A DNA stretch of 64,000 bases from Hanleya hanleyi (lineage: Eukaryota > Mollusca > Polyplacophora > Lepidopleurida > Hanleyidae), in assembly GCA_036873755.1 (NCBI GenBank), contig JAVTVY010057091.1, positions 186,001 through 250,000 of the forward strand, read 5' to 3'. The notes under the pieces were generated by a model. The model made no database searches. It saw nothing but the letters and a program-made list of their open reading frames with translations, and was not told the origin of the DNA. This document shows positions 21,365-58,100 of this stretch, piece after piece (positions within the stretch are counted from its first letter, which is position 1; each line of letters begins with the position of its first letter). The position numbers were made by a program, and so were the translations under genes.

Positions 21365-24300
21365 GTTGAGCGATGTCAGAAAGGAACAGTGAGAACAGAG
21401 ACTACACTGAGAACCCTGATCCGGAGTCTGAATGTGGTGCAGTGAGGAGAGACATTGACAATGTGAATCTTGATCCTGAGTCCGACGGTGGTGCAGTGAG
21501 GAGAGACGATGACAATGTGAACCCTGATCCTGAGTCGGACGGTGGTGCAGTGAGTAGAGACAATGACATTGTGAGCCCTGATCCGGAGTCGGACGGCTGT
21601 GCAGTGAGGAGAGACAATGTGAACCCTGATCCTGAGTCTGACGGTTGTGCAGTGAGGAGAGACAATGACATTGTGAACCCTGATCCTGAGTCTGAAGGTG
21701 GCGCCGTGAGAAGAGACGATGACAAGGTGAACCCTGATCCTGAGTCTGAAGGTCATGCAGTGAGGAGAGATAGTGACAGTGTGAACCCTGATCCTGAGTC
21801 TGAAAGTGGTGCAGGGAGGAGAGATGATAACAATGTGAATCAGGCAGGCGAGTTTGAACAACAGTCTGAGGATCCAGAGGATGTTAATCGTTCAGATAGA
21901 ACTGATGCCCGGGTTCAGGTGAACAATGTCCGGGGATCCGTGGGTGGACAAGTAGACCCAGAGGACCAGCATGTTGTGCATTACGGTGGTGAGACTGGGG
22001 ACCTCACATATGGAGCAGCTATCCAATCTGAGAATCCAGAGGATGTTGATTGTTTAGATATAAACAATGCAGGGTGTTTGGTGAAAAATGTCCTGGGTGC
22101 TGAGGGTCAGCAGGAAGATCCAGAGGATCAGCATGTGGTGAATGACAGTGGTGAGTTTGGGGACCTGGCATGTGGAGTGGGTTTCCAGTCTGAAAATCTG
22201 GAGGACAATGATCTGGGGTTTGTCATTCCAGTATCAAACAGGGGTTCTAGGGATGGCCTGTATGGGTCATCAGGTCCCATTGCACAGTCAGAAGACCCAG
22301 AAGGGCTGATGCTCGTGAATGTTCCTCTCCATAATGGACAATCTGAGGAACCAGAAGACAGCACAGGGTCTATCAGATTCTATACAGAGGCATCATGCAA
22401 TAATAGTTCAGGTGTGGTTAATGGTTTGGAGGATGACAGTACTGAAGATGATAAGGAAGGAGCCAGTGTATGTGAACCACAGTTACATGGACTTGAAGCT
22501 GAAGGTGAACCAGATGATCATGATGATAGCCCCGTCTTAGTGTTAGACTCTCCCACAAGTGATGGTTCAAATTTGGACATCCACCCTGAGGTGGAAAGAA
22601 CAGAAGATGACCCAGATAGAGTTGATCTCCGGCCACTAAATGAACATGCTGAAGATGAGCCGGAGGAGAATATCTCCAGGTGTACGACTTCGGCACAAGT
22701 TTCTGATGATCTAGACCTTCACAATGATCCTACTGCTGATTGCACAGAGGGGGATGGTAGAGATCAGCTGTTTCACCTTGAGGAGGGAGAGGGTTGTGGC
22801 AGCTCAGGAGAACCATCTGGGGAAGCAGGAGGACACTGTCCATCCACAACTGATGAGACTGAGAGTTATGGATGTGCTATTGCTGATGATGTTCATGTGA
22901 ATGTGTCTGTAGAGGAAGCAGTGAGTGAGAGTAATGCTGTGGAAGCAGACTGTGGGGATTCTAAGGCTCAGTCCGAATCTGATCCTGAAGAGAACACAGG
23001 CACACAAGATCCGTCTGATGACAGAATTGAAGCTGATAACTCTCAAAATATTTCCGCTCACTTAGAGACAGAATCGATTGACAGACCAGGAGCTGGAGGC
23101 TTGCAGGCAACCAGTGATAGTAATAACATGGATTTTCGGGCTTTTTTCAATGGTGACACAGATGATGGTGATGAATCATGTGAGGAAGCTGAAGGGGCCA
23201 GTGCTAATACAGGGGAGACAATTCAGTGCAATGTCAGTGGCAGACCAGAGGCTAGGGAGAGTTTACAAGTTGTGATAGGGGGAGAGGAACACATAAATAC
23301 TGCGCATCATACCAGTGAGGGGCTGATACTTGGTGAACAACCACTGGGTAATATTCGTCATGGAGCAGGGGGTCTTGATACAGGTGAGTTGGAAGATCAA
23401 CCGGAAGATAGTGGGTTTAGCAGACGTGATGGTGAGCGGCCACGAGACAATGTTACCGAAGCTGATCTGTATGCACCTGAATGTGATAGGGTCCAAAACT
23501 GCTTAGAACAGTCCCATAATGACCATCAAGCGGCTACAAGTCTTGGGCATTCAATGGAGAATTTACCAGATTTAGTAATGGCTGATGTAAGCCATGCAAA
23601 CTCTGCGGACAATACACATGTACATGCAGTGGCCTCCTGTCAACCTTCAGCAGAAGCATTAAGTATGCAAAATCTAAACTTGCTTTCAGACCACTTGTGT
23701 TCAGGTGATGTTGGGGATAGTTTAAGCGAGGATTTTGAAAGATCTGCCGATGTTTTACAACCCGATGTTTTACAACAGCAGCATGTAAGTGTTAATGGTG
23801 ATGGATCAGAAGAAATGTTGGAAGCCTCATCTCCAAATGAGTTTTCAAATGTGGATGCAATTCAGCAGTCAGACTTGGTGTCCGTTCATATGTGCAATGT
23901 TGGAGAAGCTGTTGCTTCAACAATAAACTTGAATACAGGGGTGTTGAGACTGTCGAATGATGTTGGACACCTCTCAAGAGTTCACACTTCGAATGCTGCA
24001 GCATCGCATGATGTATCACATGGTCTGTCACATGATGGATTAGAACCGTCGAATTCCAATTTAAACAATTCCTTGCAACGGTTACCATGTTCATTATCTG
24101 GAAGTGTAGTGACTCAAACCGAAATTGAAACTAATAACATTAAAACCACACATTCCACTTCAGCTACATGTTCTGGTAACATTGTAGAAGATGAAGACCT
24201 TCTGAATGAGCTAGATGCTGAGTTACATATCATCACGACTGAAGAGACAAACCACCAAGATAGGGGCGACCACACTTTAGTGATGGTTTCTGATAGTGTG

Positions 24301-24434
24301 ACGGCTGCTACTGGTGATGGCCTTATTAACGGTTTACGAGCCTCGTCAGCCTCTTGTCTAGCTGATGTCAAACTACAACAACAAATAAAGCAGTTACTCC
24401 AAAGACTAGCTGATAAAGATGCGAAAATTGAAAG
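21365..24434 (+). CDS. CCDC186: CCDC186 exon with start codon: acidic repeat-rich N-terminus (1020 codons)
   Basis: Acceptor gcag at 21361-21364, ATG at 21373. Residues about 14-156 are eight tandem copies of an 18-residue unit (consensus NPDPESDGGAVRRDNDNV; one copy has 16). A looser repeat with QSE.PED and DPEDQHVV follows (about residues 160-330). The rest is acidic, serine-rich and low-complexity, and the last 20 residues (QIKQLLQRLADKDAKIER) begin the coiled coil. The exon must end at 24434 with a GC donor (AAAG|GCAAGT): only this keeps the frame into the exon at 30086. The GT four bases further on would run into a stop. Confidence 0.9.
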
Positions 24435-27400
24435 GCAAGTACACTTCTAATTAGTTTAAAATGTGGACTTAATACGATCAGAGTAGCATACATATAATGT
24501 GATAAATGATAGGATAGTACACGGTTACATGTACTGAATACAGATACATGTATTGGCTGGTTCCCCCCCTAATATATTGTGAATTATTGAGACACAATTT
24601 AGGGAGGTGATTGGATTATTCAATCATAGGAAGAAAGTACATTTCCTCACCCAAAACGGGACATGATCTAGAGGTGATTGATTGTTAATAGGTAATCTAG
24701 GGGTGATTGAATTATGTTAATATGTGATCTAGGGGTCACTAAATGTTAATAGGTGACCTACATTGTAGGGGTGAATGAATGTTAATGGATGCTCTAGGGG
24801 TGATTGCATTATGTTATAGGTGATCTAGGGGTGATTGAATGTTAATGGGTGATTTAGTGGTGATTGGATTATGTTAATATGTGATCTAGGGGTGATTGGA
24901 TGTTAATATGTGATCCAGGGGTGATTGAATGTTAATGTTTGATTTAGGGGTGATTGGATTATGTTAATAAGTGATCTAGGGGTGACTAAATGCAGGGGTA
25001 GAAATATTCAAAATCATCAGCAGGACATTTGTCCTGCTGGTCAAAAAAGTTGCCGGACATTTTTAGCCCACCATCACCAGATGGTGGGCTGTTCAAATCG
25101 CTTTTCGTCCGTGGTCCATCATCCGTCGTTCGTCCGTAAACAATTTCTTGTTATCGCGATTTCTCAGGAACTACTGCATGGATCTTTCTCAAATTTGGTA
25201 CACAGGTTCCCCTTGGGGTCTAGTTGTGCAAGATACCTTTTCTGATCGGATTCGAAAGTACAATATGGCCACAAGGCGGCCATCTTGGATTTTCCCATGA
25301 AACTTTGTTATCGCGATTTCTCAGGAACTGCTGCATGAATCTTTCTCAAATTTGGTACACAGGTTCCCCTTGGGGTGTAGTTGTGCAAGATACCTTTTCT
25401 GGTCCGATTCGGAAATCCAATATGGCCACCAGGCGGCCATCTTGGATTTCCCCATGAAACTTTGTTATCGCGATTTCTCAGGAACTACTACATGGATCTT
25501 TCTCAAATTTGGTACACAGGTTCCCCTTTGGGGTCTAGTTGTGCAAGATACCTTTTCTGGTCCGATTCGAAAATCCAATATGGCCACCAGGCAGCCATCT
25601 TGGATTTCCCCATGAAAGTTTGTTATCGCGATTTCTCAGGAACTGCTGCATGAATCTTTCTCAAATTTGGTACACAGGTTCTCCTTGGGGTCTAGTTATG
25701 CAAGATACCTTTTCTGGTCCGATTCGAAAATCCGATATGGCCACCAGGCAGCCATCTTGAATTTCCCCATGAAAGTTTATCGCGATTTCTCAGGAACTAC
25801 AGTATGGATCTTTCTCAAATTTGGTACACTGGTTCCCCTTGGGGTCTAGCTGTGCAAGATACCTTTTCTGGTCCGATTCGAAAATCCAATATGGCCACCA
25901 GGCAGCCATCTTGGATTTCTCTATGAAAGTTTATCGTCATTTCTCAGGAAGTACTGCATGGATCTTTTTCAAATTTGGTACACAGGTTCCCCTTGGGGTC
26001 TAGTTGTGCAGGATACCCTTTTCGGTCCGATTCGAAATCCAATATGGCCACAAGGCGGCCATCTTGGATTTCCCCATGAAACATTGTTATTGCGATTTCT
26101 CAGGAACTACTGCATGGATCTTCCTCAAATTTGGTACACAGTTTCCCCTTGGGGTCTAGTTGTGCAAAATACATTTTTTGGTCCGATTCGAAAATCCAAT
26201 ATGGCCACCAGGCAGCCATCTTGGATTTCTCCATGAAAGTTTGTTATCGTCATTTCTCAGGAAGTACTGCATGGCTCTTTGTCAAATTTGGCACACAGGT
26301 TCCCCTTGTGGTCTGTGTGCAGGATACCTTTTTTGGTCCGATTCCAAAATCCAATATGGCCACCAGGCGGCCATCTTGGATTTCCTCATGAAACTTTGTT
26401 ATTGCTATTTCTCAGGAAGTACTGCATGGATCTTTGTCAAATTTGGTACACAGGTTCCCCTTTTGGTCTATGTGTGCAGGATACCTTTTGTGGTCCGATT
26501 CGAAAATCCATTATGGCCACCAGGCGGCCATCTTCGGTTTCCCCATGCAACTTTATCGTGATTTTTCAGGAAGTACTGCATGAATCTTTTTCAAATTTGG
26601 TACACAGGTTCCCCTTTGGGGTCTAGTTGTGCAAGATACCTTTTTCGGTCCGATTGAAAAATCTGATATGGCCACCAGGCGGCCATCTTGGATTTACCCA
26701 TGAAACTTTATGGTGATTTCTCAAGAAGTACTGCATGGATCTTCCTCAAATTTGGTACACAGGTTCCCCTTGTGGTCCATTTCTGCAAGATATCTTTTTT
26801 GGTCCGATTTGAAAATCCAATATGGCCACTAGGTGGCAATCTTGAATTTCCGCTTGAAACATTGTTATCATGAATTCTCAGGAACTACTTCGTGGATCTT
26901 TCTGAAATTTGGTACACAGGTCCCACATGGGGTCTAGTTGTGCAAGATACCTTTTTTGGTGCGATTCGAAAATCCAAGTTATGCTTCAAATTAATCCGGT
27001 ATTCCCGAGTTGTGATGTTGCATCACAAGAGTCGGCGGATCAAACGGTGGGGCGTATTCTATATATTGACTAGAGAATATCCATACCTTCACCTTCCATA
27101 TCAAGGAGTTCAAATGATTCAGAATTAAAATGTATTTCTTCAAATTTAAAATCAATTTTCTTTACTCCATGCAGTTGCAAGTGAACTGGCACTGCCCCAC
27201 CGTTTCATCTGGCGACGGGTCGGTTACACGAAGGGACGTCACTCTTGTGACACAACGTCACAACTGTAGACTACTGCGTGTTTCGATCCAAGGGAGATAA
27301 TCAGGATTCAGACACTTTGGAAGTTTCAACATTATTGCGCGGACCGGATCCCTTCAGTATTAAGTTTTGTACCATCTTACAATTTTCGAGCATGGTATCG

Positions 27401-30400
27401 TAAAAGTGATATCTCAAACTAGCCCAGTAAACAGAACAGAATTAGCATTGGTTCCTAATTATAAAATCTTAAGTATGTTTCATAGCTCATGCCAAATTGT
27501 CAAAGAGACTTGTCTTCGCTTCCAGTACCCAATGATGACACGTGCAAAAAAAAATATACCACAAAACGAAGACGAAGGATCCTCCGGACATTCACTTTCA
27601 GACTAACTTTGCTCATTTCACTTGTACTATAACAACGGACATCAAATACAGTTTCTAGAATCTTGTAACTCCTGCAACTTAGAAAGATAATATCTTGGTG
27701 TTTTCCAGTGTCCCTTTTTCGATCTTTTTCGCTCAGATTCGAAATTCTGCAAACAAAATTACAAATCAATCGTTTGTTCTTAGTAACAATGGACAAAAAG
27801 ATCCTCTTGTCATTAGCTTACATTTATCGGACAATGGTGGGCGCCAAGATCCTTCAGGATCTCTCGTCATCTTTGTCAGGACGAAATTTATTGTCAGACA
27901 AACTGAAGTTGTTTTGCTTCATTGAACAATTTCTGAGATTTGCTGAACCAGTCACAAATTAATTTCTCAAGCGACCTTTGCCTTTTACTTTTGGTTTATC
28001 TCTCATATATTAAGTAATGTCCAGAGCTGTAATCATACCATGGTCGAGTTTTTCTTAAAATCGTCCTTAAAATTTCATGTCTCTGCCACGCTAGATGGCG
28101 GTGATGCAGGCAGAGCTTTTGGGGCTTTGTCTGTACTATTGGGTAGTATTTCTGATCTTTCTAATTCCCCTTGGTTGCAGACTTTTTTTTTACAGAAAGT
28201 CAAAGTTTTACAGGCCCGCCATTTTGTCGACCGAACACGAGGTTTCCCTTCAATGTACAGCTCATTCCGTGTGACCGACCTGCTTCACCCGACGGCCTAT
28301 AAATACTTTTAACTGCCTGACAAACAGCCGAGATGTAAAGTGCTCATAGACACATGGTAAATGTAGTAGGATGACGTCGATAATTCAGACCAATCAAAAT
28401 GTAGGTCACGAGGAATGCCCTTTCCACATTCCATTCCCCAACAACATCAAGCATGGCGAGTTGACTTTTGTTGAAATTTGCACATGAATTCGGGGAATAA
28501 AACTAAGATGAAGCGGTTGCCTTAAGCTTTATAAGTGATCTCATAGCAGGTTTTGTATTTTCTAGAGATTCAGGGCTGATAAACTGCGTCGGACAATTGT
28601 CCGAGGGACAATTGTCCGAGGGACAAACCAATTTTACCGGACAGTACATTTGTCCGACAAATCAATGTATATTTCGTTTCCTGAAATGTTAATAGGTGAC
28701 CTACATTGTAGGGGTGAATGAATGTTAATGGGTGATTTGGGGGTGATTGGATTATGTTAATATGTGATCTAGGGATGACTAAATGTTGATAGGTGATATA
28801 GGGGTGACTAAATGTTAATATAGGTGACCTACATTGTTGGGGAGAATGAATGTTAATAGGTGATCTAGGGGTGATTGGATTATGTTAATAGTTGATCTAG
28901 GAGTGATTGCATATCAATAGTGTATATCAATATTTGTTCTGAAATGCGAATGTTAATGGGTGATTTAGGGGTGAATGAATGTTAATGGGTGATTTGGGTG
29001 TGATTGGATTATTTTAATATGTGATCTAGGGGAGACTAAATGTTGATAGGTGATATAGGGGTGACTAAATGTTAATATAGGTGACCTACATTGTTGGGTG
29101 AATGAGTGTTAATGGGTGATTTGGGTGTGATTGGATTATGTTAATATGTGATCTAGGGATGACTAAATGTTGATAGGTGATATAGGGGTGACTAAATGTT
29201 AATATAGGTGATCTACATTGTTGGGTGAATGAATGTTAATGGGTGATCTAGGGGTGATTGAATGTTAATGGGTGATTTAGGGGTGATTGGATTATGTTAA
29301 AAGGTGATATAGGGGTGATTGAATGTTAATAGGTGATCCAGGGGTGATTGAATGTTAATGGGTGATTTAGGGGTGATTGGATTATGTTAATAGGTGATCT
29401 AGGGGTGATTGAATGTTAATAGGTGAGCTAGGGGTGATTGAATGTTAATAGGCGATCTAGGGGTGATTGAATGTTAATAGGTGGTCTAGGGGTGATTGAA
29501 TGTTAATGGGTGATTTAGGGGTGATTGGATTATTTTACTAGGTGATCTAGGGGTCATTGAATGTTAATAGGTGATCTAGGGGTGATTGAATGTTAATAGG
29601 TGATCTAGGGGTGATTGAATGTTAATGGGTGATTTAGGGGTGATTGGATTATGTTAATAGGTGATCTAGGGGTGATTGAATGTTAATAGGTGATCGAGGG
29701 GTGATTGAATGTTAATAGGTGATCTAGGGGTGATTGAATGTTAATAGGTGATCTAGGGGTGATTGAATGTTAATGGGTGATTTAGGGGTGATTGGATTAT
29801 GTTAATAGGTGATCTAGGGGTGATTGAATTATGTTAATAGTTAATCTAGGGGGGATTGAATGCCAATAGGTAGCCTAGGAGTGATTGCATATCAATAGTG
29901 TATATCAATATTTGTTCTGAAATGCGTAAACTTGGTGAAGTACATAAACTTCATCAACCCTGCTCCTGAAAAGAACAACCTGCATGTATGGGTACTTGGA
30001 ACTCCTGATTGAATTGTATATGTATCTTTTGTTATCATATTCAGAGGGTGCTATGATTAGCAATAAAACACTATATTTTATCCAGATTGGAGAATGAAAA
30101 ATCCAATCAAGAGGAACAACTGGAGTTCATTACTCATGAGAAGGACACTTACTTGAAGAAGTTACAGATTTTACAGTCCAAACAGTCACCAGACGATCTC
30201 TACTTACCACAAATTAAAGAGGTCAGTATGCATGTTCTGATTAGAACTTGAACTTGTGAATGTTTAACTTAAATTGGCAAATCTCATATTTCCAATTTTT
30301 CTAATACTCAGTATTCTGCTCACAATCTCTTCAGAGTAAAGATTTTTCTGTTTGCACCTGAGGTTGATAAGGGTGGCCTCCTGCAGCAATAATTGTTGAA

Positions 30401-33400
30401 AACAGCCTTTATTGAAATGTTCACATGGCATGTATCGATTATCATCATGTACATGAATTCTCTTCTTCAGTTGGAGTATACACTTAATCAGCAACAGAAT
30501 GAAATCCGAGGTCTGAAGGAGAAGTTATCATCCCATGATGCTGCGGCCAAGAGAGCAGTGGGTGCTTTACAGCATGAAATCAAACTTAGGGTGGACCAAG
30601 TAAGAATTCACAATACGACTGAGACGGCAGTGCATGCTTTACAGTATGAACTCAAACTTAGGGTGGACCAAGTAAGAATTGACCGCATGGCTAAGAGAGC
30701 AGTGGGTGCTTTACAGCATGAACTCAAACTTAGGGTGGACCAAGTAAGAATTTACAATACAGCTAAAAGAGCAGTGGGTGCTTTACAGCATGAACTCAAA
30801 CTTAGGGTGGACCAAGTAAGAATTTACAATATGGCTAAGAGAGCAGTGGGTGCTTTACAGCATGAACTCAAACTTAGGGTGGACCAAGTAAGAATTTACA
30901 ATACAGCTAATAGAGCAGTGGGTGCTTTACAGCATGAACTCAAACTTAGGGTGGACCAAGTCAGAATTTACAATACGGCTAATAGAGCAGTGGGTGCTTT
31001 ACAGCATGAACTCAAACTTAGGGTGGACCAAGTAAGAATTTACAATATGGCTAAAAGAGCAGTGGGTGCTTTACAGCATGAACTCAAACTTAGGGTGGAC
31101 CAAGTAAGAATTTACAATATGGCTAATAGAGCAGTGGGTGCTTTACAGCATGAACTCAAACTTACGGTGGACCAAGTAAGAATTGACAATATGGCTAAGA
31201 GGGCAGTAAATGCTTTACAGCATAAGCTCAAACTTAGGGTGGATCAAGTAAGAATTGACAATATGGCTAATAGAGCAGTGGGTGCTTTACAGCATGAACT
31301 CAAACTTAGGGTGGACCAAGTAAGAATTGACCGTATGGCTAAGAGGGCAGTGAGTACTTTACAGCATGAACTCAAACTTAGGGTGGACCAAGTAAGAATT
31401 GACCGTATGGCTAAGAGGGCAGTGGGTGCTTTACAGCATGAACTCAAACTTGGAGTGAACGGAATAAGAATTGACAATATGGCACTGCATGCCTTTAATA
31501 GTCTCTAACATGAACAAATAAATGAAGTCATAGCGAGGGCCTCTTTAGCCAACTGCAGATTATCTACAAAAAATAATTTTCCCAGCATACATAGTTGTTA
31601 TTTTACAAACTTGCTTAACGTTGCGAGGTGGGGTATCCACCGTCTCAATACATTTGGTCACTTCTCTCCTCACATGGCTTGCTGACATTGTCGCAGCTTG
31701 AGATTGACAGATCATCTCCAAGTCTGGCCATGAACGTAATATCTTACATCTTCATATGCAGATTTCACGAGTTAACAGGTCATGGGTATATTATATCCTG
31801 GGATGGGGATGATACGTTAATGTCTTGTGCCTTATTTTTAGGCTTAAATTTAATAATAGCTATTTTTTCTAACTGTGTGTTTTAGGTGACCAAAATGTAT
31901 GAGGACTGTAGGAAGGAGAAAGACTCAATGGTTGTGAAGTATGCTCAAGCTGAACATAAGAATATAGAGTTGCAGAAGAACACAGAGGCAGCTGAAGGCA
32001 AGCTGAGAGACATATTGAGAGAGAGAGAACAGTTTCTTGTGAAGGCCAGAGCGCTCAAAGCTGATTATACCAAGACATGTGCAGAGCTTGAATTAAAGGT
32101 AAGCTACTAATATATGTACTTCTTTGAGTGCCACCAGGATATTAATTTGAAGGAAGAGTGCTGGGAACATTTTCCCCCCTCAGCCAAATTTAGCCTTGGG
32201 GTATCGTCGTCATCATGTCCGCCTGTCTGTCCATCACCATTTTCTCTTTCAATTTGTTACCATTTAATATCGGTCCATGTGTGAAAGTTTGTCAGTTACT
32301 TGCCGATGGGCGGTGGTTCTCTCCGGGTACTCCGGCTTCCTCCACCAACCAAACTGACTGTCACCATATGAGTGAAACAAACTTGAGTGTGACATTAAGC
32401 CATTTAATATCTGAAGAAGACTACTTCTGAGCAGAAATTTACTGCAATGTGAGACTGACCTATTTCTATCGGGGTCATTGGGTTAAAGTTGTTCCTTTTG
32501 TCACCAATTAGATTTTAACGAACATAATTCAAGAATGATTATGTGTAGGCTTACTCAAATTACACCTGATACATATGTGCTCTTGGGCTTCGGCTAAAAT
32601 TGGCACTGGAATATTTTCATGATTTTGTATGTACGTACAATATGTCCATCTCTGTTTTATCATTACCGCCATATCGTAGAATGTAAAGGAGCACCAAACT
32701 GAAATCACAGATGAAGCAGATTGACCATTATTTTTTGGATCACTGGGTTAAACTGTCAATTTGTCACCAATGGCTTATTGCCATCATGCTGCTGATTGGT
32801 CAACGAGGGCCCTATTTAAATAACCCGAAGGCAGAGGGGTTCTCAGTGCTTTGCATGGTTCATGTTAATAGTACACAATCATGACAGTGTATAATTTACA
32901 CCTGACTATTAGTATGATACATGTCTGACAGCTTGTAAACATGACACTAGTGCAATATTTAGTTTGGTAGGGGTACTGTTGAGTTTGCTAGGTACTCATG
33001 TATTCATATGTTCACTTGTCTGTTCTCAGAATTCTGAGTTGCATTCAACGGGAAGAGAATTGGACAAACATAAAGAGCTGCTATCGTCGGCTGAGGTCCG
33101 CATAAAATGGGCGCAAAACAAGATGAAGGCAGAATTGGAAGCTCACAAGGTCAGTTATCTTTCCTTAATTTGGAGAGAAATATTCCTTTGTACCACCATA
33201 AAAATCTTAAGATGTGGATATATTTCAGAGTGTTTCGTGAAGTTACCACTTGTCTTTAATGTCCCAAACAACATTAATTCAAGAGAACTTTCAGTAATTT
33301 TCATATCTCTATGAATATGCCACAGGGTGAGGTTGAAGATGGCATTATCCCATTATGGGATAAATCACATAGCTCCTAGAGTAAAGTATGTAATGTATGT

Positions 33401-36400
33401 TTAACAGGGTGATAGAACAATCTGATAAGGTTGTGCTAGTTATACTAGATAATTATTTTCTTATGTTGTAATTGACAGGTGTCAAAGAAAGCATTACAGG
33501 AGTGTGCTGCTAGAATTATGGATAATGAATTGTATATGTTGTTATTGATAGGAGACAAGGAGTTAGAGAAGTGTGCTGCTAGAATTAAGGATAATGAAGT
33601 GTATATGTTGTAATTGACACGAGACAAATAAAGCGTTATAGAAGTGTGCTGCTAGAATTAAGGATACTGAATTGTATATGTTGTAATTGACACGAGACAA
33701 ATAAAGCGTTATAGAAGTGTGCTGCTAGAATTAAGGATAATGAAGTGTATATGTTGTAATTGACACGAGACAAATAAAGCGTTATAGAAGTGTGCTGCTA
33801 GAATTAAGGATACTGAATTGTATATGTTGTAATTGACACGAGACAAATAAAGCGTTATAGAAGTGTGCTGCTAGAATTAAGGATACTGAATTGTATATGT
33901 TGTAATTGACACGAGACAAATAAAGCGTTATAGAAGTGTGCTGCTAGAATTAAGGATACTGAATTGTTTATGTTGTAATTGACACGAGACAAATAAAGCG
34001 TTATAGAAGTGTGCTGCTAGAATTAAGGATACTGAATTGTATATGTTGTAATTGACACGAGACAAATAAAGCGTTATAGAAGTGTGCTGCTAGAATTAAG
34101 GATACTGAATTGTATATGTTGTAATTGACACGAGACAAATAAAGCGTTATAGAAGTGTGCTGCTAGAATTAAGGATAATGAAGTGTATATGTTGTAATTG
34201 ACACGAGACAAATAAAGCGTTATAGAAGTGTGCTGCTAGAATTAAGGATACTGAATTGTATATGTTGTAATTGATACGAGACAAATAAAGCGTTATAGAA
34301 GTGTGCTGCTAGAATTAAGGATACTGAATTGTATATGTTGTAATTGACACGAGACAAATAAAGCGTTATAGAAGTGTGCTGCTAGAATTAAGGATAATGA
34401 ATTGTATATGTTGTAATTGACACGAGACAAATAAAGCGTTATAGAAGTGTGCTGCTAGAATTAAGGATAATGAAGTGTATATGTTGTAATTGACACGAGA
34501 CAAATAAAGCGTTATAGAAGTGTGCTGCTAGAATTAAGGATACTGAATTGTATATGTTGTAATTGACACGAGACAAATAAAGCGTTATAGAAGTGTGCTG
34601 CTAGAATTAAGGATAGTGAATTGTATATGTTGTAATTGACAGGAGACAAATAAAGCCTGACGTAAGTGTGCTGCTAGAATTAAGGATACTGAATTGTATA
34701 TGTTGTAATTGACACGAGACAAATAAAGCGTTATAGAAGTGTGCTGCTAGAATTAAGGATACTGAATTGTATATGTTGTAATTGACAGGAGACAAATAAA
34801 GCCTTGCGTAAGTGTGCTGCTAGAATTAAGGATACTGAATTGTATATGTTGTAATTGACAGGAGACGAAGAAAGAGTTAGAGAAGAGTGTTGCTAGAATT
34901 AAGGAATCCAAAGAAGAGGCTGAACAGATCAGGAGAGATTGTCAGGCTATCATCAAAACTTATCAGGTAAACAAAGTGTACAATCTGTGACATGTTATAG
35001 CACCAACATTTTATTCTGTAGATATTTGGTCTCTCTTCAATAATTTGAATTTCATATTTCTGACACAGACTTCAAATGTGGGAGTGGCTTGATGTCAGTA
35101 ATAAAGATGTTGGTTGGACTGATAGCAGTAATGTGGAGGTTGGTTGGATTGATATCAGTTTAATATGAGGAGGTTGGTTGGATTGATATTAGTAATGAGG
35201 AAGTTGGCTTGACTGATAGCAGTAATGTGGAGGTTGGTTGGATTGATATCAGTAATGGGGTTGGTTGGATTGATACCAGTAATGAGGAAGTTGGATTGAT
35301 ATCAGTAAAGAGAATGTTGATTGGATTGATATCAGTAATGAGGAGGTCGGCTGAATTGATATCAGCACTGAGGAGGCTGGTTGGGTTGATATCAGTAAGG
35401 AGGAGGTTGGTTGAATTGATATCAGTAATGACGAGGGCAGTTTGGCTTATACCAGTAATGTGGAGGTTGGTTGGATTAATATCAGTAATGTGGAGGTTTG
35501 ATTGATATCAGTAATGAGGTGGTTGGATTGATGTCAGTAAAGACGAGGTCAGTTGGATTGACATCAGTAATGAGGCGGTCAGCTGGATTGATATCAGCAC
35601 TGAGGAGGTTGTGTGGATTGATATCAGTAATGAGGAGATTGGTTGAATTGATATCAGTAATAGGAGGTTGGTTGGATTGATATCAGTAATTAGGAGGTTG
35701 GATTGATATTAGTACTGAGGTGGTTGGTTTGATTGATATTAGTAATGAGGTTGGTTGGATTGATATCAGTAATGAGGAGGTTGGTTGGCTTGATATCAGT
35801 AATAAGGAGGCTGGTTGGATTGATATCAGTAATAAGGAGGTTGGTTGGATTGATATCAGTAATGAGGAGGTTGGTTGGATTTATATCAGTAATGTGGGGG
35901 TTGGTTGGATTGATATCAGTAATGAGTAGGTTGGTTGGATTGATATCAGTAATGAGGAGGTTGGTTGGATTGATATCAGTAATGAGGAGGTTGGTTGGAT
36001 TGATATAAGTGATGAGAAGGTTGGTTGGATTGATATCAGTAATGAGGAGGTTGGCTGGATTGATATTAGTGATGAAGTTGGTTGGATTGATAGCAGTAAT
36101 GAGGAGGTTGGTTGGATTGATATCAGTAATGAGGAGGTTGGTTGGATTGATAACAGTAATGAGGAGGTTGGTTGGATTGATAACAGTAATGAGGCGATTG
36201 CTTGGATTGATATTAGTAATGAGGAGGTTGGTTGGATTGATATCAGTAATGAGGAGGTTGGTTGGATTGATATCAGTAATAAGGAGGTTGGTTGGATTGA
36301 TATCAGTAATGAGGAGGTTGGTTGGATTGATATCAGTAATGTGGGGGTTGGTTGGATTGATATCAGTGATGTGGTTGGTTGGATTGATAGCATTAATTAG

Positions 36401-39400
36401 GAGATTGGATGGATTGATATCAGTAATGTGGAGGTTGGTTGGATTGATAGCAGTAATGATGAGGTTGCTTGGATTGATATTAGTAATGAGGTTGGTTGGA
36501 TAGATATCAGTAATGACATGAATGAGGAGGTTTGTTTTAATGAATGAGGGATCAAGTAACAGCAAAAACAATTTAAAGTCTCACTGGAGCATTGTTATTT
36601 ATTCATGAGAAACACCTCTGCCAGATCTGTCACCGCGGCAGGGAATTTAAACATGAATATCTCTAAAACAGTTAAACATTTTCAGGTCAAACTTTGTGTG
36701 CTACGTAGATCTGGATAATTTTTATGGTTGTATATTGGTGTCTGCTGGCACTATAGTCGGAGCATAGTTAAACATTTGTAACACGATTTTGTTTGATTTC
36801 TATTTTCTATAAAATTTAATTATAATGATCTTGAAGGGGTAGGCAAAGTGCTGAAAAGGCTTTGGGGTTGCTGGCATAACTGTGGAGTTATTTCATTTTT
36901 TTCGTGAATGGAAATTGACCAATTTGATCGGTGAACCAATAGTACATTACTAATGCCAGAAATTTGATTTGCCTGTATGTCAAAATTATCGCTAAAAATA
37001 ACCAATACGAGCAAAAAAGAGAAAAAAAAAGATTGCTCAGGCAGAACTTATATCTTCCTGAAAGTAGAACAGAATATCCTATGATAGCAAAGTTTCTTTC
37101 CCCTCACGCCTAAAGAAGTTCACCCTGTTTTCATGGCAATGTTTTTTTCGTGTCTTGTACGAGTCATCAGTATGTCTATATTGTTATTTCAGGAGTGCGA
37201 GGAGATGAAATCCAATACACTGGACCAACGGTTGAGGAAGAAAGAGAGTGAACTGTTATTAGAGAAAAGGGAGAAAACTGACCAGGAAGAGGTCAGACTA
37301 GCTTCTTAATCTACGGTCAAACTGCACAGAATGTACAAACTCTTATTTTACTAAATGGTAACTGTTATGGGCTGTTTCAATTAAAAATATGAAAACCCAC
37401 CTGAAAGAGAATACATTCATGAATATATCAGTTGTGCCTTCTCCCTCGACAATAAGAAAAAAATAAAGTTCTTTGGGTGGCTGATCAAGTTTTAGTTTTA
37501 CATGTTTTTCTTGAATGCCTGTATTCTGCCAGGTTCACAGTGTAGTACTACGAGAACTGGAGTCCCTGAAGGTCAAACACAAAGACACTCTGGAGGAACT
37601 GATCACCTATAAAGATAAGGTATTAATAGATGAACCTACACTTGCTATGAAGAAGTTTGACAGTCAATTAAACTGTGCTTGTCTATTGTTGGAGTATTAA
37701 GGGTACTGCAGGCACTTTTACACACCCTCTAGAATTTGTCTTTATACAGATAAAAGTATGCCTTCTATCTATGATAATGTGTATATTTGTTGCCCAAATC
37801 TACACCTGCTCTTGCTAATGGCCTTATCTCCCTTTAGGAAGATCCTACAAATAGTTAAAAACGAAAAGTTGTCTCCCCTTAGGGAGCTCTCTCAGCCCAG
37901 CTAGGTTACTTAAGCTCTGCCCAATCCTTAATCTCCCTCTTTCTCTATTTGTACCTGCTCGAGTGTCGTGCATATCAGGAAGTGTCCTATAGTGCTGGTT
38001 TGGTTGTTGTTGGTTTGACCTTCGGTTGTACCTTTGCTAAACTTGTATTTTTCTGTTGCTGTATTTCTTGGACAATTATGTCTGAGATATCTATCCCGGT
38101 TATTTCTAATTCTTGTCGCTCGCGTGGGCAGTTTTGGACTTGCTTAGATGCTCACACGGTTTGCTTTTCGTGTAAAGGTCACCTGTGTTATCGGCAGGCC
38201 ACGTGTTCAGAGTGTCAATCTTGGGATACTATTACCTGGAGGAACTATGCCCAGGCGCGGCGGGCATATTTATTGCACGCTACTGAAGACCCGGCATTAT
38301 CGGAGGACGATAGACGTCAAAATGAGATTGCGTTAGTTGGAGATCTGAAATTTAACAAGGACCTCGTGGGTTCTAATTTGGATTTATCGCATAGACTTAA
38401 AAGCCCGGCTTTATCATCGGCGTCTGTTACTATCCCTCCTAGTGGGACCGTTGCACGAGGAGATAGCGATCATGTTCTAGACAGTCTGGCTTCTACTGGT
38501 AAAGCCTTGTCTGGGGTTCCTGTGAAACCTGTTTCTTTGTTCGAGACAACAAAGGACTCTAGCCCCAGGTCGGGTTTGCCTGAGCGTTCTATTGTTACCA
38601 ACGAACAAAAGATTTCTGCTTCACCGCGTGTCATTTCACCTAATCTTTTGTCAGTCGGTCTATCTCTGTCCGGTTCTTTCAAAGAGAAAAAACATCATCG
38701 ATTGTCGACTTCACCTTTACGGTTTAAATCTCGTTCTTCCTCTGCTGTTTTATCTAAAGCAGCCTTTCGCTCTATGGTCGGTCGTTCGGACTCTACTTTG
38801 AATTATCAGATTGCGGATTTACAGCCTCCGGTTTCTACGTTTGTTGACCCGTCACTTCGTCGTTCCCGTGCTTCCAAATGACGCTCTTGTACATCGCAAC
38901 GCCGTTCACGTTCTCGTTCGCCTGTACGTCGTTTTGTTACTCCGCCTCGACGTTCTGTTATGCCGTCTCGTCGTTTTCATACACCTGTACGCCGTTCTCA
39001 TACACCTGTTCGTCGTTCTCGTTCTCCTGTTCGTCGAGCTCATACACCTAATCGTCCTAGTACTTCTTTACGGCTTTCCCGTTCTCCGGTACGCCGTTCT
39101 CGTACTCCTGTTCGACGTTCCCGTACGCCTCCACGCCTTTTGCCACGTCGTTCTTCCTCACCTCCCCGTCGGGGTCGTCAAGTTCGTCAGTCGCAGACTC
39201 CATTTCTTGATCAATCTTTTGATCGGTTATTGTCTACCTCTCGCCGTCGACACGTCGTTTGTTCTCCCAAAGCGGTTTCGACGTCTTCGTCTGATAGTCA
39301 AGATTCCCCTTCTTCTTCGGATAGTTCGAAAGATTCGTCTAAGATGCCATTTTCTGACAAAATGGCGGCGGTTTTGGCTCTCGTTCCGGACATGCCCGTT

Positions 39401-42400: not shown

Positions 42401-45400
42401 TGCACGTGTGCTCCGTCTCCAGCTTGGGAGTCTAATTGTATTGTGTTTGATCGTCAATTGGAGGATGACAACAAGTTTAAGAAGCCCTCGTTTTCATTTT
42501 ACCAACTTCATGATAACGTTCTTCCCGATAAACCGCCCAAACGTGATCGTGATTTGAGTCAGGTTTCGAAATCAAATAAAGCAACTTCTGTTTCGGTTCC
42601 TACCAAAGTTGTCGATAATGTTATGGAGATGTTGCTGGCAATGCAACGTATTACATCTTTCGCGGATTGGTTTCTGTTGGCTACTTCTCGGATTACCTTG
42701 GATCCTGCGTTACGTCAAGCGATGGTTCGGCTTCTTTGTCTTCTGGTCGTCTTACCTACTTACGAGCTTTCATTGACACGCTCAATATAGCTAACCGTCA
42801 TGTCATTGAGGCGGGTGCTTTTTCTTATGTTTCGCTTCTTCAAGCTCAGCGTAAAGTGTTGCTTCAGTTTGTCAAGCCTGACGTTCCATACTTTGTGAAG
42901 GATCAACTGTTACAACAGCCGTTATCCTCTAAGTTTGTTTTCAACAATGCTATCGAGTCTGTCATGCCTAGTATTCGTGAGGAACGGACTTCTCGTTATG
43001 CCCCCCCTCTAACTAGAGGGGGGGCATATAGCGATCGCTTTGTCCGTCCGTCCGGTCTGTCCGTCCGTCTGTCCGTCCGAATTTCTTGTCCGCGCAATAT
43101 CTCGGTTAATATTTGATGGACAGGATTGAAACTTGCATGCAATGTGCCCAGTGCCTCGTAGTTGTGCAGCGTAGAGTTTTTTCCGAGTTCTGGTATAATT
43201 TTCAAGAGTTATGGCCCTTTTTCTGAAATCTCTGTGAATTGGACTTGTCCGGGCTGGATCTTGGTTAATATTGTATGGACAAGTATGAAATTTGCATGAT
43301 ATGTGGTCAGTGCGTCACAGTTGTGCAGTGTAAAGTTTTTTCACGTTTCGCTTATATTTTCAAGAGTTATGGCCCTTTGTTCTTGAAATATCCATGAATT
43401 GGGACTTGTCCGGGCTGGATCTCGGTTAATATTGTATGGACAATTATGAAATTTGCAGGATATGTGGTCAGTGCCCTGTAGTTGTGCAGCGTGAAGTTTT
43501 TCCACGTTTCGCGTATATTTTCAAGAGTTATTTTTTCTTCAAATCTTTGTGAATTGGGACTTGTAGGGCTGGATCTCGGTTAATATTGTATGGACAAGTA
43601 TGAGATTTGCATGATATGTAGTCAGTGACCCGTAGGTGTGCAGCATGAATTTTCTCTGCTTGCGGTTATGTTTTCAAGAGTTATGGCCCTTTGTTTATCA
43701 AATCTAAGTGAATGGGATATATTTATTTTTCCAGGCTGGATCTCGGTCCATAACCGATTTGAACCAGAAAAATGGCTATATTATATGTTATTCTACATTC
43801 CAAAGCAGACAACATAGGTCCTGAAGTATGAAATTGCCCCAAAAAGAGTGAATTGGGTGCAAATTTCAAAGTTCACTGATCGCTTCGTAATTTCACCACA
43901 ACATACTCCCAAGGAATGTAGGTCTCATAACCAGGTCACATTTTCGGATTTGGCGAAGCCCTGGCGACCATCTTGCATCGAAACATCGTATTATCACTTG
44001 TTGGTTGATACTTGGAATATGTATTATGTGAGGCATGGCAAAAAAAGTGACTGAAACAGAATTTTTATAATTATCCAAATTAGGCCACCAACCAATAAAG
44101 AACAGAACGATGGCAGGGCAGTGTCGGATTAAAGCGGAAGGGGGGGGGGGGCATACAATTGAGCAATCTCTGATTGCTTCCTTCCTGTGTTTGATTTCTG
44201 CTGCGGCTCGGCGTCCGGCTTTTTCCGTGGATCGGAAGCCTAACCGGAATCGTGTATCCAAGCCTACCCAACGTGAGGTATTTCCACATGGTAATTTTCG
44301 TGGCTTCGACAAGCCTCTACAAGCCCGTGGCCGTCGTTCCACCCGTGGGAAATTTTCCAGAGGAAGGGGTGCTTCCAACAAATGACTATCCGTTCCCCAT
44401 TTCCCATCATACCAGAGATTTTCATCTGCCCGCCTTCCGCCCTTTCAATCATCAGGTCGTCGGCGGCCGTTTACAACATTTCTGGGAGAATTGGCAGCTC
44501 ATAACAGACAACGACTGGATTATCAAGACATTGAAGTATGGTTTCCTCTTCAACTTTCAGTCCCAGCCCAGACTCATCTCTCGGCCTCGTCCTTCTCTAC
44601 TGCCAGTTCCCACAGGACACGTTCAGACGCTTCTTTCCTCTGTCGCCACGCTCATCGCCAAAGGTGCCGTCAGAGAGCTGCCACATGCCGAAGACAGCGT
44701 CGGTTACTACAGTCATGTCTTCCTTGTTCCGAAGAAAGATTCGGACCAAATGCGGATGATTATCGATCTCAAGAGACTCAACAAGTTTCATCTGACCATG
44801 CCGCCTCATTTCAAGATGTCAGTCTCATCGATCCGGGCCCGCGTACATCACTGGGATTGGTTGGCCTCCATCGATTTACAGGACGCATATCTCCATATAC
44901 CTATTCATCCTCGTCATCGGCGATTCCTTCGTTTCACCATCAACGATCGTCGGTTCGAGTGGCAAGTCCTCCCGTTCGGAGTCAACATCACTCCATGGCT
45001 TTTCACCCGTATCACTTCACCAGTCATGGCGTTTCTCCATCTACGGGGCATTCACATCGAGGTTTATATAGACGACATCCTCTTGTGGGCTGCGGACAAG
45101 CCCCTACTCAACGCTCAGGTCCGTTTCACTCTGCTCGTTCTACGTCATCTCGGGTTCATACCTCACCCTCAGAAGTCAGAGTTGGTTCCAGCGCAAATTC
45201 GCCGTTACATCGGGGCTGTGTTCAATACTCGTCAACAACTGGTGCGCCCCCCAGAGGACCGGTGGACCAAAATTCAGGCGTTGATACTAAGGTTTTTGTC
45301 ATCAACTTATCAGACACGTCAGCGGTGGCAAAGCCTTCTGGGTTTACTCACTTCCACGCAGGGCCTTACTCATTACAGTCGTCTCCGAGTTCGGCCGCTG

Positions 45401-48400
45401 CAATACCATCTGTTTCCTTATCTACAGACGTCATCCCTCAATCCTGTTGTTCTGGTATTGACGTCTCTACATCCACATCTGATTTGGTGGCAGTCCCGCC
45501 ACAACGTCATGCGGGGAGTTCCCTTCCGATTTCCATCTCCGGATCACCATCTCCACACCGATGCTTCCGAGACCGGTTGGGGAGCCCATCTGGACGGTCT
45601 GGAGGTGTCCGGCAGATGGTCGAGTTTGGATGCCAGACTTCACATCAACCTTCTGGCAGTCATCCTAGCAGTTCAGCATTGGAGTTGGCGTCTCATGAAG
45701 TCGTCCCTTCTCATCGCTACGGACAACTCTACGGTCATTGCTCACATCAACAAGATGGGTACCACCCGATCTTTCTCAACGTTTCGTCTGGTGTGGGATC
45801 TTTACGACTGGGCTCTCATTCATCACTGTCATCTCAATGCTCGCCATGTTCCGGGTCGGCTCAATGTCTTAGCGGACCGCCTTTCTCGTCCCGACACCGT
45901 CCTTCAGACCGAATGGCAACTTCATCTGGAGGTCTTCCGTCAGATCTGCAGCGTCTGGGAGACCCCCGTGATCGACCTGTTTGCGACGAGGAACAATGCA
46001 CAGCTTACCCTCTTCGTCAGTCCGATTCTGGACCCTCAAGCCTTCGCCATCGACGCCCTTTCAATCAACTGGGACAACTTCCTGGCTTATGCCTACCCAC
46101 CCATGGCCCTGATTCTTCAAAAGATTTCTCAACACGACTGCGTCGTTCTGCTCGTGGTTCCGTGGTGGCCTCGTCGTCAGTGGTTTCCGGTTCTGGTTCC
46201 ACTTCTCACTGCTCCGCCACGTCGTCTTCCAGTTTGGCCCAGCCTGTTGCGTCAACCTCACGGGATATTTCATCACAACCCGCAGTGGCTCAACTTACAT
46301 GTCTGCAGACTATCCAGAGTGCACTCACAGTCCAAGGATTTTCAGCAGAAGTTGCACAGACGATGGTTTCAGCCAATAGATCTTCCACATCACAGCTCTA
46401 TCAAGCGAAATGGGCCTATTTCGTCTCCTGGTGCCAAGAACGTGATTCCGATCCCGACTCTGCCTCTATTTCCTTAGTAGCTGACTTCCTCCTTCACCTT
46501 CATCGTGATAAGAAGTTTCAAATCAGCACCATTGAGGGGTACCGGTCTGCTTTGGCTAGGGTTTTACGTCTTTCTACCGGCATCGACATTAGTCTAAACG
46601 ACAATATCTCTGCTCTCCTACCATGCCTACGGGCTTTCGCCTTACAGTCTCGCCGTACTCGCCAGCTGTTACCGAAGTGGGATATTGATGTGGTTCTTTG
46701 TGCCCTGATTCGTCTGCCCTTCGAACCTTTACAGTCCGCCTCTCTTAAAGCTGTTTCCTACAAAACTGCTTTTCTGGCGGCTTTTGCTTTGGCGTCTAGA
46801 GTTTCTGAACTTCACGCTCTGGAAAGATCATCTCTGACCTGGACGGCGGATTGGTCTCGCATTTCCTTTCGTCCCGTCCCTGAGTTCATCGCCAAGAATG
46901 AGGCTGTGCGCCAAGGTCCATGTGCTCAACGTTTGTACTCCATCCCTGCTTTATCAGACTTTGTTCGTGACCTTGAGGACGACTTACTGTTATGCCCTGT
47001 ACGAGTCATACGTCACTATCTCACTCGTACCGATCCTGGTCGGCGTTCTCGTCGTCTATTATTCCTGTCTCTTCAGCCATCTGCAGTGTGTGACATTACC
47101 AAGAATACTACTGCTTCTTGGTTGAAGAAGACCATTAAGTGGACATATCAACTTGCCATTGACGCTGCCCCACTTTTGTCCTCTGCTTCTTCCCATGAAA
47201 TTCGTGCCATCGCTACATCATGGCCTTTATGGAAGAACTTATCCCTTCATGACATTGTCCAGTCCTGTGCATGGACGGCAAATTCTACGTTCACCAATTT
47301 CTATCTGAGAGATATGTCAGTACAATCAGATAGGGTGACCACGCTTGGGCCGCTGGTGGCTGCCCAGCACGTGGTCGAGTAACTTTCCAAAAAAAAGGGG
47401 GGGGGCATTTGGAGGGGGGGCATTTTCGTTCAGCGCAGCAAGTCCGTCAATCAGCCAGCTTGCTGCATCATCTCATCTATCAGTCATATCATATGTCCAC
47501 CATACTACATGATCACCTCAATAGGTCAGCCTGCCAGCTGCCAACTCACAAGTCATCTTTCAAGGCCTGACACAAGGGTGAGTATTGTTTTTCTTTTTTA
47601 GGTATACTTTGTGTCAATTTCAGGTTTAAAGTACAGAGGGTTTGGTGCATGAGGGCAACTATGACCATCTTATTAGATCATCTCAAGAGAGGCAGCTGCT
47701 GTCAACTCACAAGTCATCTTACAAGAACTGACACATTCGTGAGTACTACTTTCAGGTTTACCAGTGTCAGCAACAGGGACTAAAGTACAGAGAGTTGACG
47801 TAAGATGGCTTGTGGACTAAAGAGTGGTATAAGATGGGCACCTTGTATGCAATGTTGTCGGGATGTACATGACCACTTCTATTCGTCATACACTGATTAC
47901 CACTCGAATACTCACAGCGCCACCGGCCCGAGTTCCTTCGTGGGGGTAAAATTGTGCACCACATCCACGATCACGGCTACATGGTTGAGTACATTCAACA
48001 ATCTATTACGATTACTCCATGACTACCCACAGCGTCACCGACCAGGGTCCCTCTTGTCGAGTACTAGTGTGCCATGTCCGTGATCATCTCAGCGGTTACT
48101 CAGCCTGCTATTGGAACTACAACAAGGCCGAGGTGCCCACCTCCATATGTTGGTAGTGAGCCATTAGCAAGAGCAGGTGTAGATTTGGGCAACAAATATT
48201 AAACATTTATAAATAATGTTGGTATTTGTTACCAAATCAAACCTGCTCTTGCTTTGATTACCCTCCCATCCTGCCCGTCACTCCACGGCCTTGCACACCA
48301 GACGTCTCGGGCTATAAGAGTGAGAAAGAGGGAGATTAAGGATTGGGCAGAGCTTAAGTAACCTAGCTGGGCTGAGAGAGCTCCCTAAGGGGAGACAACT

Positions 48401-56976: not shown

Positions 56977-58100
56977 AGCCCACCATCACCAGATGGTGGG
57001 CTGTTCAAATCGCTTTTCGTCCGTGGTCCGTCGTCCGTCCGTGAACAATTCTTGTTATTGCGATTTCTCAGGAACTACTGCATGGATCTTTCTCAAATTT
57101 GGTACACAGGTTCCCCTTGGGGTCTAGTTGTGCAAGATACCTTTTTTGGTCCGATTCGAAAATCAAATATGGCCACCAGGCAGCCATCTTGGATTTCCCC
57201 ATGAAACCTTGTTATCGCGATTTCTCAAAAACTACTGCATGGAACTTTCTCAAATTTGGTACACAGGTTCCCCTTGGGGTCTAGTTGTGCAAGAAACCTC
57301 TTTTGGTCCGATTCGAAAATCCAATATGGCCACCAGGCAGCCATCTTGGATTTCCCCATGAAACCTTGTTATCACGATTTCTCAGGAACTACTGCATGGA
57401 TCTTTCTCAAATTTGGCACACAGGTTCCAATTGGGGTCTAGTTGTGCAAGATACCTTTTCTGGTCCGATTCGAAAATCCAATATGGCCACAAGGCGGCCA
57501 TCTTGGATTTCCCCATGAAACCTTGTTATCGCGATTTCTCAGGAACTACTTCATGGATCTTTCTCAAATTCGGTACACAGGTTCCCCTTGGGGTCTAGTT
57601 ATGCAAGATAGCTTTTCTGGTCCGATTCGAAAATCCAGTATAGCCACCAGGCAGCCATCTTGGATTTCCCCCATGAAACCTTGTTATCGCGATTTCTCAG
57701 GAACTACTGCATGGATCTTTCCCAAATTTGGTACACAGGTTGCAATTGGGATCTAGTTGTGCAAGATACCTTTTCTGGTCCGATTCGAAAATCCAATATG
57801 CTCACAAGGTGGCCATCTTGGATTTCCCCATGAAACCTTGTTATCGCAATTTCTCAGAAACTACTGCATTGATCTTCCTCAAATTTGGTACACAGGTTTC
57901 CCTTGTGGTCCAGTGCAAGATACCTTTTTTTGGTCCGATTGGAAAATCCAATATGGCCACCAGGTGGCCATCTTGAATTTCCCTTGAAACATTGTTATCG
58001 TGAATTCTTAGGAACTACTTCATGGATCTTTCTGAAATTTGGTACACAGGTCCCACATGGGGCCTAGTTGTGCAACATACCTTATTCGTTGCCTAAATCG
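56977..58100 (+). repeat. Hairpin-headed 157-bp tandem array (family A), copy 2
   Basis: It has the same head hairpin (56977-57002), the same CGTCCG leader and the same monomers as 25065-26990, here about seven copies with starts 157 bases apart. It ends with the same distinctive terminal monomer (GTCCCACATGGGG). The sequence before the head (ATTTTT) is also shared. It abuts the decayed DIRS copy. Confidence 0.93.

Follow-up and report, generated by a model that had tools for sequence, protein, structure and literature searches.

Twelve tandem, in-frame splice donors in a 72-bp array of a presumed CCDC186 gene of Hanleya hanleyi

In the window (the whole stretch analysed, 64,000 nucleotides; G000:C52390:186001-250000, in an assembly of 2.48 Gb and 52793 contigs), a 72-bp tandem array adjoins an exon of a putative CCDC186 gene and repeats the end of that exon together with its splice donor. 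The array is likely to be a minisatellite that swallowed the donor and was tolerated since the first donor works, with occasional in-frame isoforms that gain 24 residues; this genome readily makes repeats, and the array looks like a side effect of that, not like a built-in length dial. Its structure is real and its origin is ordinary. CCDC186 is described as taking part in dense-core vesicle maturation (PMC10419233). The array and the exons around it are listed below.

30086-30221, forward strand: coding exon next upstream (acceptor atccag, donor gtcagt, boundaries set by eye; open frame)
30471-30599, forward strand: exon whose 3' end presumably seeded the array (43 codons, LEYTLNQQQNEIRGLKEKLSSHDAAAKRAVGALQHEIKLRVDQ)
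30600-31463, forward strand: twelve 72-bp units with GT donors at 30600+72k (k=0-11), from TRF and register alignment
31464-31508, forward strand: degenerate 13th copy (k=12), starting ATAAG and ending in the closing stop TAA (31506-31508)
31886-32098, forward strand: next exon (VTKMYEDCRKEKD...), with an acceptor to which each of the twelve donors could be joined
33030-33149, forward strand: further downstream exon, after 31886-32098

TRF placed the array at 30545-31483, with 13.0 copies, 91% matches and 0% indels, and as a repeat it is far beyond chance. The preliminary description had proposed a duplicated exon-intron boundary, and the alignment agrees: each unit joins 18 nt of intron start to 54 nt of exon end, and the exon part of the unit consensus is identical to the last 54 nt of exon 30471-30599 at 52 of 54 positions. 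The natural donor of this exon lies inside the adjoining array and its GT is carried by the units, as in donor-spanning VNTRs of the ABCA7 type. All twelve units start with GT, as had been predicted for 30600+72k; 11 read GTAAG, and the one at k=5 (30960) reads GTCAG. A CAA donor had been claimed for every copy in one and the same form, which holds for the 11 donors with CAA followed across the boundary by GTAAGAATT and fails at k=5, where CAA is followed by GTCAGAATT. The 13th copy has indeed lost its GT (AT at 31464), and frame 0 from 30471 is open across all copies, up to the TAA. Any of the donors joined to the acceptor at 31886 keeps the frame and adds 24 residues per step, which gives this exon the range already described, from 43 codons with donor k=0 to 307 codons with donor k=11; as was also pointed out, 24 is not a heptad multiple but three heptads plus three, and each step shifts the register. 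The open frame is largely expected because a 72-bp open unit stays open when copied; therefore, only later mutations carry information.

The acceptor before 31886 (ttttttctaactgtgtgttttag) is well formed by eye. U1 pairing came to -4.5 kcal/mol for eleven of the array donors and -1.7 for k=5; five further donors in the gene gave -5.5 to -9.1 kcal/mol, although for three of these the scoring began 1-3 nt away from the true donor, an offset that the duplex search tolerates. Of the donors scored in the gene, those of the array thus pair most weakly with U1, and there is no ground for assuming that the first one is strong. We also considered micro-exons or new introns within the array by way of ctttacag sites, and set them aside; such introns would be 45 nt long, with tracts that are weak by eye.

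Variation among the units was counted as events, with each column and derived letter taken once over the 12 units. This gave 29 events (21 transitions and 8 transversions), of which 8 are synonymous, 21 nonsynonymous and none a stop. If mutation is random, with the transition bias seen here, 8.1 synonymous events are expected, and 29% of simulations contain no stop (P=0.29). The proposed check, whether unit differences are mostly synonymous, is thus answered in the negative, with a neutral pattern; the synonymous excess that would mark a selected coiled-coil repeat was not seen among these events (8/29 against 8.1, a comparison of low power). Variable columns number 11, 6 and 9 at codon positions 1, 2 and 3. 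Pairwise pN/pS over all 12 units is 0.78 for the whole unit, 0.68 for the exon part and 0.96 for the intron part, and over units 1-10 it is 0.57 for the whole unit and 0.44 for the exon part; these values, which rest on small, non-independent numbers, hint at constraint and leave room for a weak one. Intron columns 10-18 are over-variable, with 7 events where 3.6 are expected (P=0.04). At the GT itself only 0.8 events are expected, and its full retention is therefore unremarkable. The units most diverged from the consensus are k=0 and k=11, at 9 positions each, followed by k=8, at 8 positions.

A second boundary of the same gene recurs in a mirror array, on the acceptor side.

33462-34861, forward strand: mirror array, in which an intron-exon boundary is present in 19 copies of 73 bp
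34862-34966, forward strand: exon whose 5' end presumably seeded the 73-bp array

TRF extends this array over 33462-34905, with about 20 copies. The unit, as displayed, consists of 28 nt of intron end and 45 nt of exon start and is out of phase. The acceptor AG is kept in 2 of the 17 in-register copies and in 2 edge copies shifted by 4 nt (4/19) and lost in the other 15 of the 17; 16 of the 17 contain an in-frame stop. Units differ from one another by 9.7% on average in the 72-bp array; for the 73-bp array, taken over its 17 in-register copies, the average is 3.4%. Over the six exons tested, from 30086 to 37291, 2 of 12 boundaries recur in arrays, namely donor 30600 and acceptor 34862.

Arrays detected by TRF cover 31% of the window and 11.6% of 50 loci surveyed elsewhere in the assembly. 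Within the window, a 54-bp array of 8.2 copies at 21404-21839 lies inside a 1026-codon open frame (21370-24447) and is a coding repeat, perhaps in the acidic N-terminal region of the same gene; two arrays lying apart, at 25147-26977 and 57051-58083, share one 157-bp satellite unit; and the 998-codon open frame at 44386-47379 is a candidate DIRS-type retroelement, its end resembling a tyrosine recombinase.

Arrays that span a donor recur elsewhere in the genome, in kinesin genes. At locus L066 the units are 50 bp long (41 exon and 9 intron nt) and out of phase, and the donor is kept in 28/28 copies, the exon's own included (GTGAGT in 27, GTAAGT in 1); in the first donor, bases +2 to +4 form a TGA. 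This array of strong GTGAGT donors (L066:8490-9927) reaches the end of the analysed stretch. At L061 the units are 62 bp long and likewise out of phase; GTAAGT is found in 22/23 and ATAAGT in one, and the exon's own GTAAGT is additional. Most units at L048 and L050 measure 61 or 65 bp; the copies number 10 and 12, with GTTTGT in 9/10 and 11/12, respectively, and the two contigs (C48281 and C37783) are about 90% identical, that is, alleles or recent paralogues. L068 holds a diverged donor array of few copies, as judged by eye. Out-of-phase arrays thus have intact donors, and therefore intact tandem donors do not imply in-frame isoforms. The pair of 72- and 73-bp arrays had prompted the idea of a frame filter, by which sites stay live only in in-phase boundary arrays; the counts at L066 (28/28) and L061 (22/23) refute it.

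How often donor and acceptor sides fall in arrays was surveyed on exon places that belong almost entirely to one gene family. A search of the assembly with PF00225 (kinesin) gave 124 exon-level matches, 79 of them in the 50 surveyed loci; after removal of 8 same-place duplicates, and with a single member kept of every near-identical contig pair (four pairs, whose best alignments had 89.7 to 99.8% identity), 67 were left, and 6 of 72 myosin matches brought the total to 73 distinct exon places. A side was called as lying in an array when its 90-bp interval had at least 2 further copies within 1 kb, downstream for donors and upstream for acceptors. Donor sides lay in arrays in 5/72 places by script (one place being too near a contig end) and in 4/72 after inspection, all four kinesin (L050, L061, L066 and L068); L061:2962-3411 was rejected as a donor array, as it sits well inside the intron, beyond the true end of the exon. 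Acceptor sides lay in arrays in 0/73 exon places. Random intron intervals did so in 58/730 draws downstream and 66/730 upstream, and repeat draws gave 60/730, 136/1460 and 139/1460, 8-9% overall. The P values are 0.64 for donors against control, 0.003 for acceptors against control and 0.058 for donors against acceptors, all of them too small because the hits among the controls are concentrated in 13-16 of the 43 loci. The share of donor sides in arrays is close to that of other intron DNA, and acceptor sides seem protected, on small numbers from almost one gene family.

A cruder count of left edges put 3 array edges at donors against 0.66 expected (P=0.03), unlike the interval test. The triple AGGTAAGT at 39-69 bp spacing was matched 842+1038 times and the reversed pattern 1101+1461 times; among the matches listed, in contigs up to C4614, a count by eye, without normalisation for single octamers, gave 15 contigs against 10. 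The notion that donors are hot spots for array birth is unsupported, as the reversed pattern is commoner and the interval test found no excess.

Taking these results together, the reading that competes best with a tolerated minisatellite, and that we still regard as unlikely, is that several donors are substantially used and that selection keeps a CCDC186-like ladder of proteins in 24-residue steps. A unit length divisible by three, the open frame and GT in 12/12 units are all consistent with it, as is the low pN/pS of the exon part in units 1-10. The read-through of 30471-31505 was also predicted to form two long helices, at residues 2-170 and 175-344 (single-sequence model, nearly all of it helix, best of five, mean pLDDT 73.8, pTM 0.24). 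Within the unit, the strongest hydrophobic harmonic is at 2.4 residues, ahead of 4.0 and 3.43, and consequently there is no clean coiled-coil period. Searched against Pfam, the spliced peptide gave no family above the cut-offs; the read-through gave 19 unrelated families, six of them above the cut-offs, which we took as chance matches summed along a repetitive query. The adjustable coiled coil of the preliminary description, taken as a selected feature, is left unsupported by the rest of the evidence: variation over the whole array suits neutrality, out-of-phase arrays keep their donors equally well, and donor sides are in arrays no oftener than intron DNA.

Less probable again, to the point of being hard to credit, is a constitutive use of the last good donor, 31392, through a preference for the intron-proximal site, which would make the array a constant insertion of 264 residues. 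The frame does remain open through twelve copies and closes soon after the last GT, and in the part of the DOK7 report cited here (PMC5585400) it is the intron-proximal site of intron 4 that is preferred. Such use would nevertheless require an exon of 921 nt and has the neutral variation against it; in kinesin L066 any later donor would bring in the TGA and the first donor should dominate there, and the ABCA7 report, in the portions cited (PMC5954066), describes retention of a single unit. That the copy number was inflated or collapsed in assembly is very improbable, for fragmented as the assembly is, the array carries unit-specific variants along its length and no second copy of its flanking exons was found in the assembly, where one copy of the locus was detected.

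For the tolerated minisatellite that we favour, the array would have begun when the final 54 nt of the exon and the initial 18 nt of the intron were duplicated in tandem, and would have grown by unequal exchange or slippage, which may have left copies that are older and more diverged at its two ends. Two features would make it tolerable: the original donor, 30600, still precedes all the others, and 72 is divisible by three, so that splicing from a stray later donor would lengthen the helix by 24n residues without shifting the frame. Donor 30600, or another among the first few, probably serves most transcripts, with longer isoforms probably in the minority; rare longer protein forms are possible.

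A broader proposal can be made only tentatively, and we think it rather doubtful: in a minisatellite-rich genome, arrays may repeatedly swallow exon ends, almost only on the donor side, where extra downstream donors are tolerated, and in-phase open units may leak extensions that become raw material for repeat-protein segments. Extra upstream acceptors would be tolerated only where most have lost the AG, as has happened in the 73-bp array. The outcome would be a standing stock of multi-donor exons, few of them, the present exon included, with open units of a multiple of three. If genome-wide, the asymmetry between donors and acceptors, for which numbers are small so far, bears on exon lengthening and on the origin of repeat proteins. 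The 72-bp array is in itself a natural experiment in splice-site competition, with twelve near-identical, evenly spaced, in-frame donors before one acceptor, and with an out-of-phase, acceptor-side mirror array in the same gene. Read aligners can produce spurious splice junctions between repeats (EASTR, PMC10632439), which makes short reads a risky guide to an array of this kind.

Among known systems, several donors also compete for one acceptor in DOK7 intron 4, where, in the text cited (PMC5585400), two unlike sites lie 11 nt apart, whereas the twelve sites here are nearly identical. Reported intron gain by tandem duplication across a splice boundary, as outlined in the literature drawn on, copies splicing signals as the 72-bp array does; there, a new intron arises at the duplicated region, while the twelve copies here show no sign of one and their ctttacag sites are weak by eye. 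The splicing VNTR of miR-137 was rejected as a parallel, its arrangement being different in what is cited of it (PMC6692358). Limited, word-based searches of the open literature, in the portions returned, recognised no in-phase multi-donor array. The closest precedent is the human ABCA7 intron-18 VNTR, for which we rely on parts of one report (PMC5954066). Its 25-bp unit includes the exon-18 donor, with GT as the first two bases; as here, the array comes right after the exon and the unit begins with the natural donor GT. Retention of one unit is reported there, in 2 +/- 1% of transcripts and similarly across three tissues. As 25 is not a multiple of three, the retained ABCA7 unit shifts the frame and is subject to decay; the 72-bp unit also holds 54 nt of exon, in phase and open. 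By analogy with the ABCA7 pattern, use of mostly the first donor with a small tail would be likeliest for the 72-bp array, and this tail, unlike that of ABCA7, would be translatable. The 72-bp array is a frame-preserving variant of the known donor-spanning kind of VNTR.
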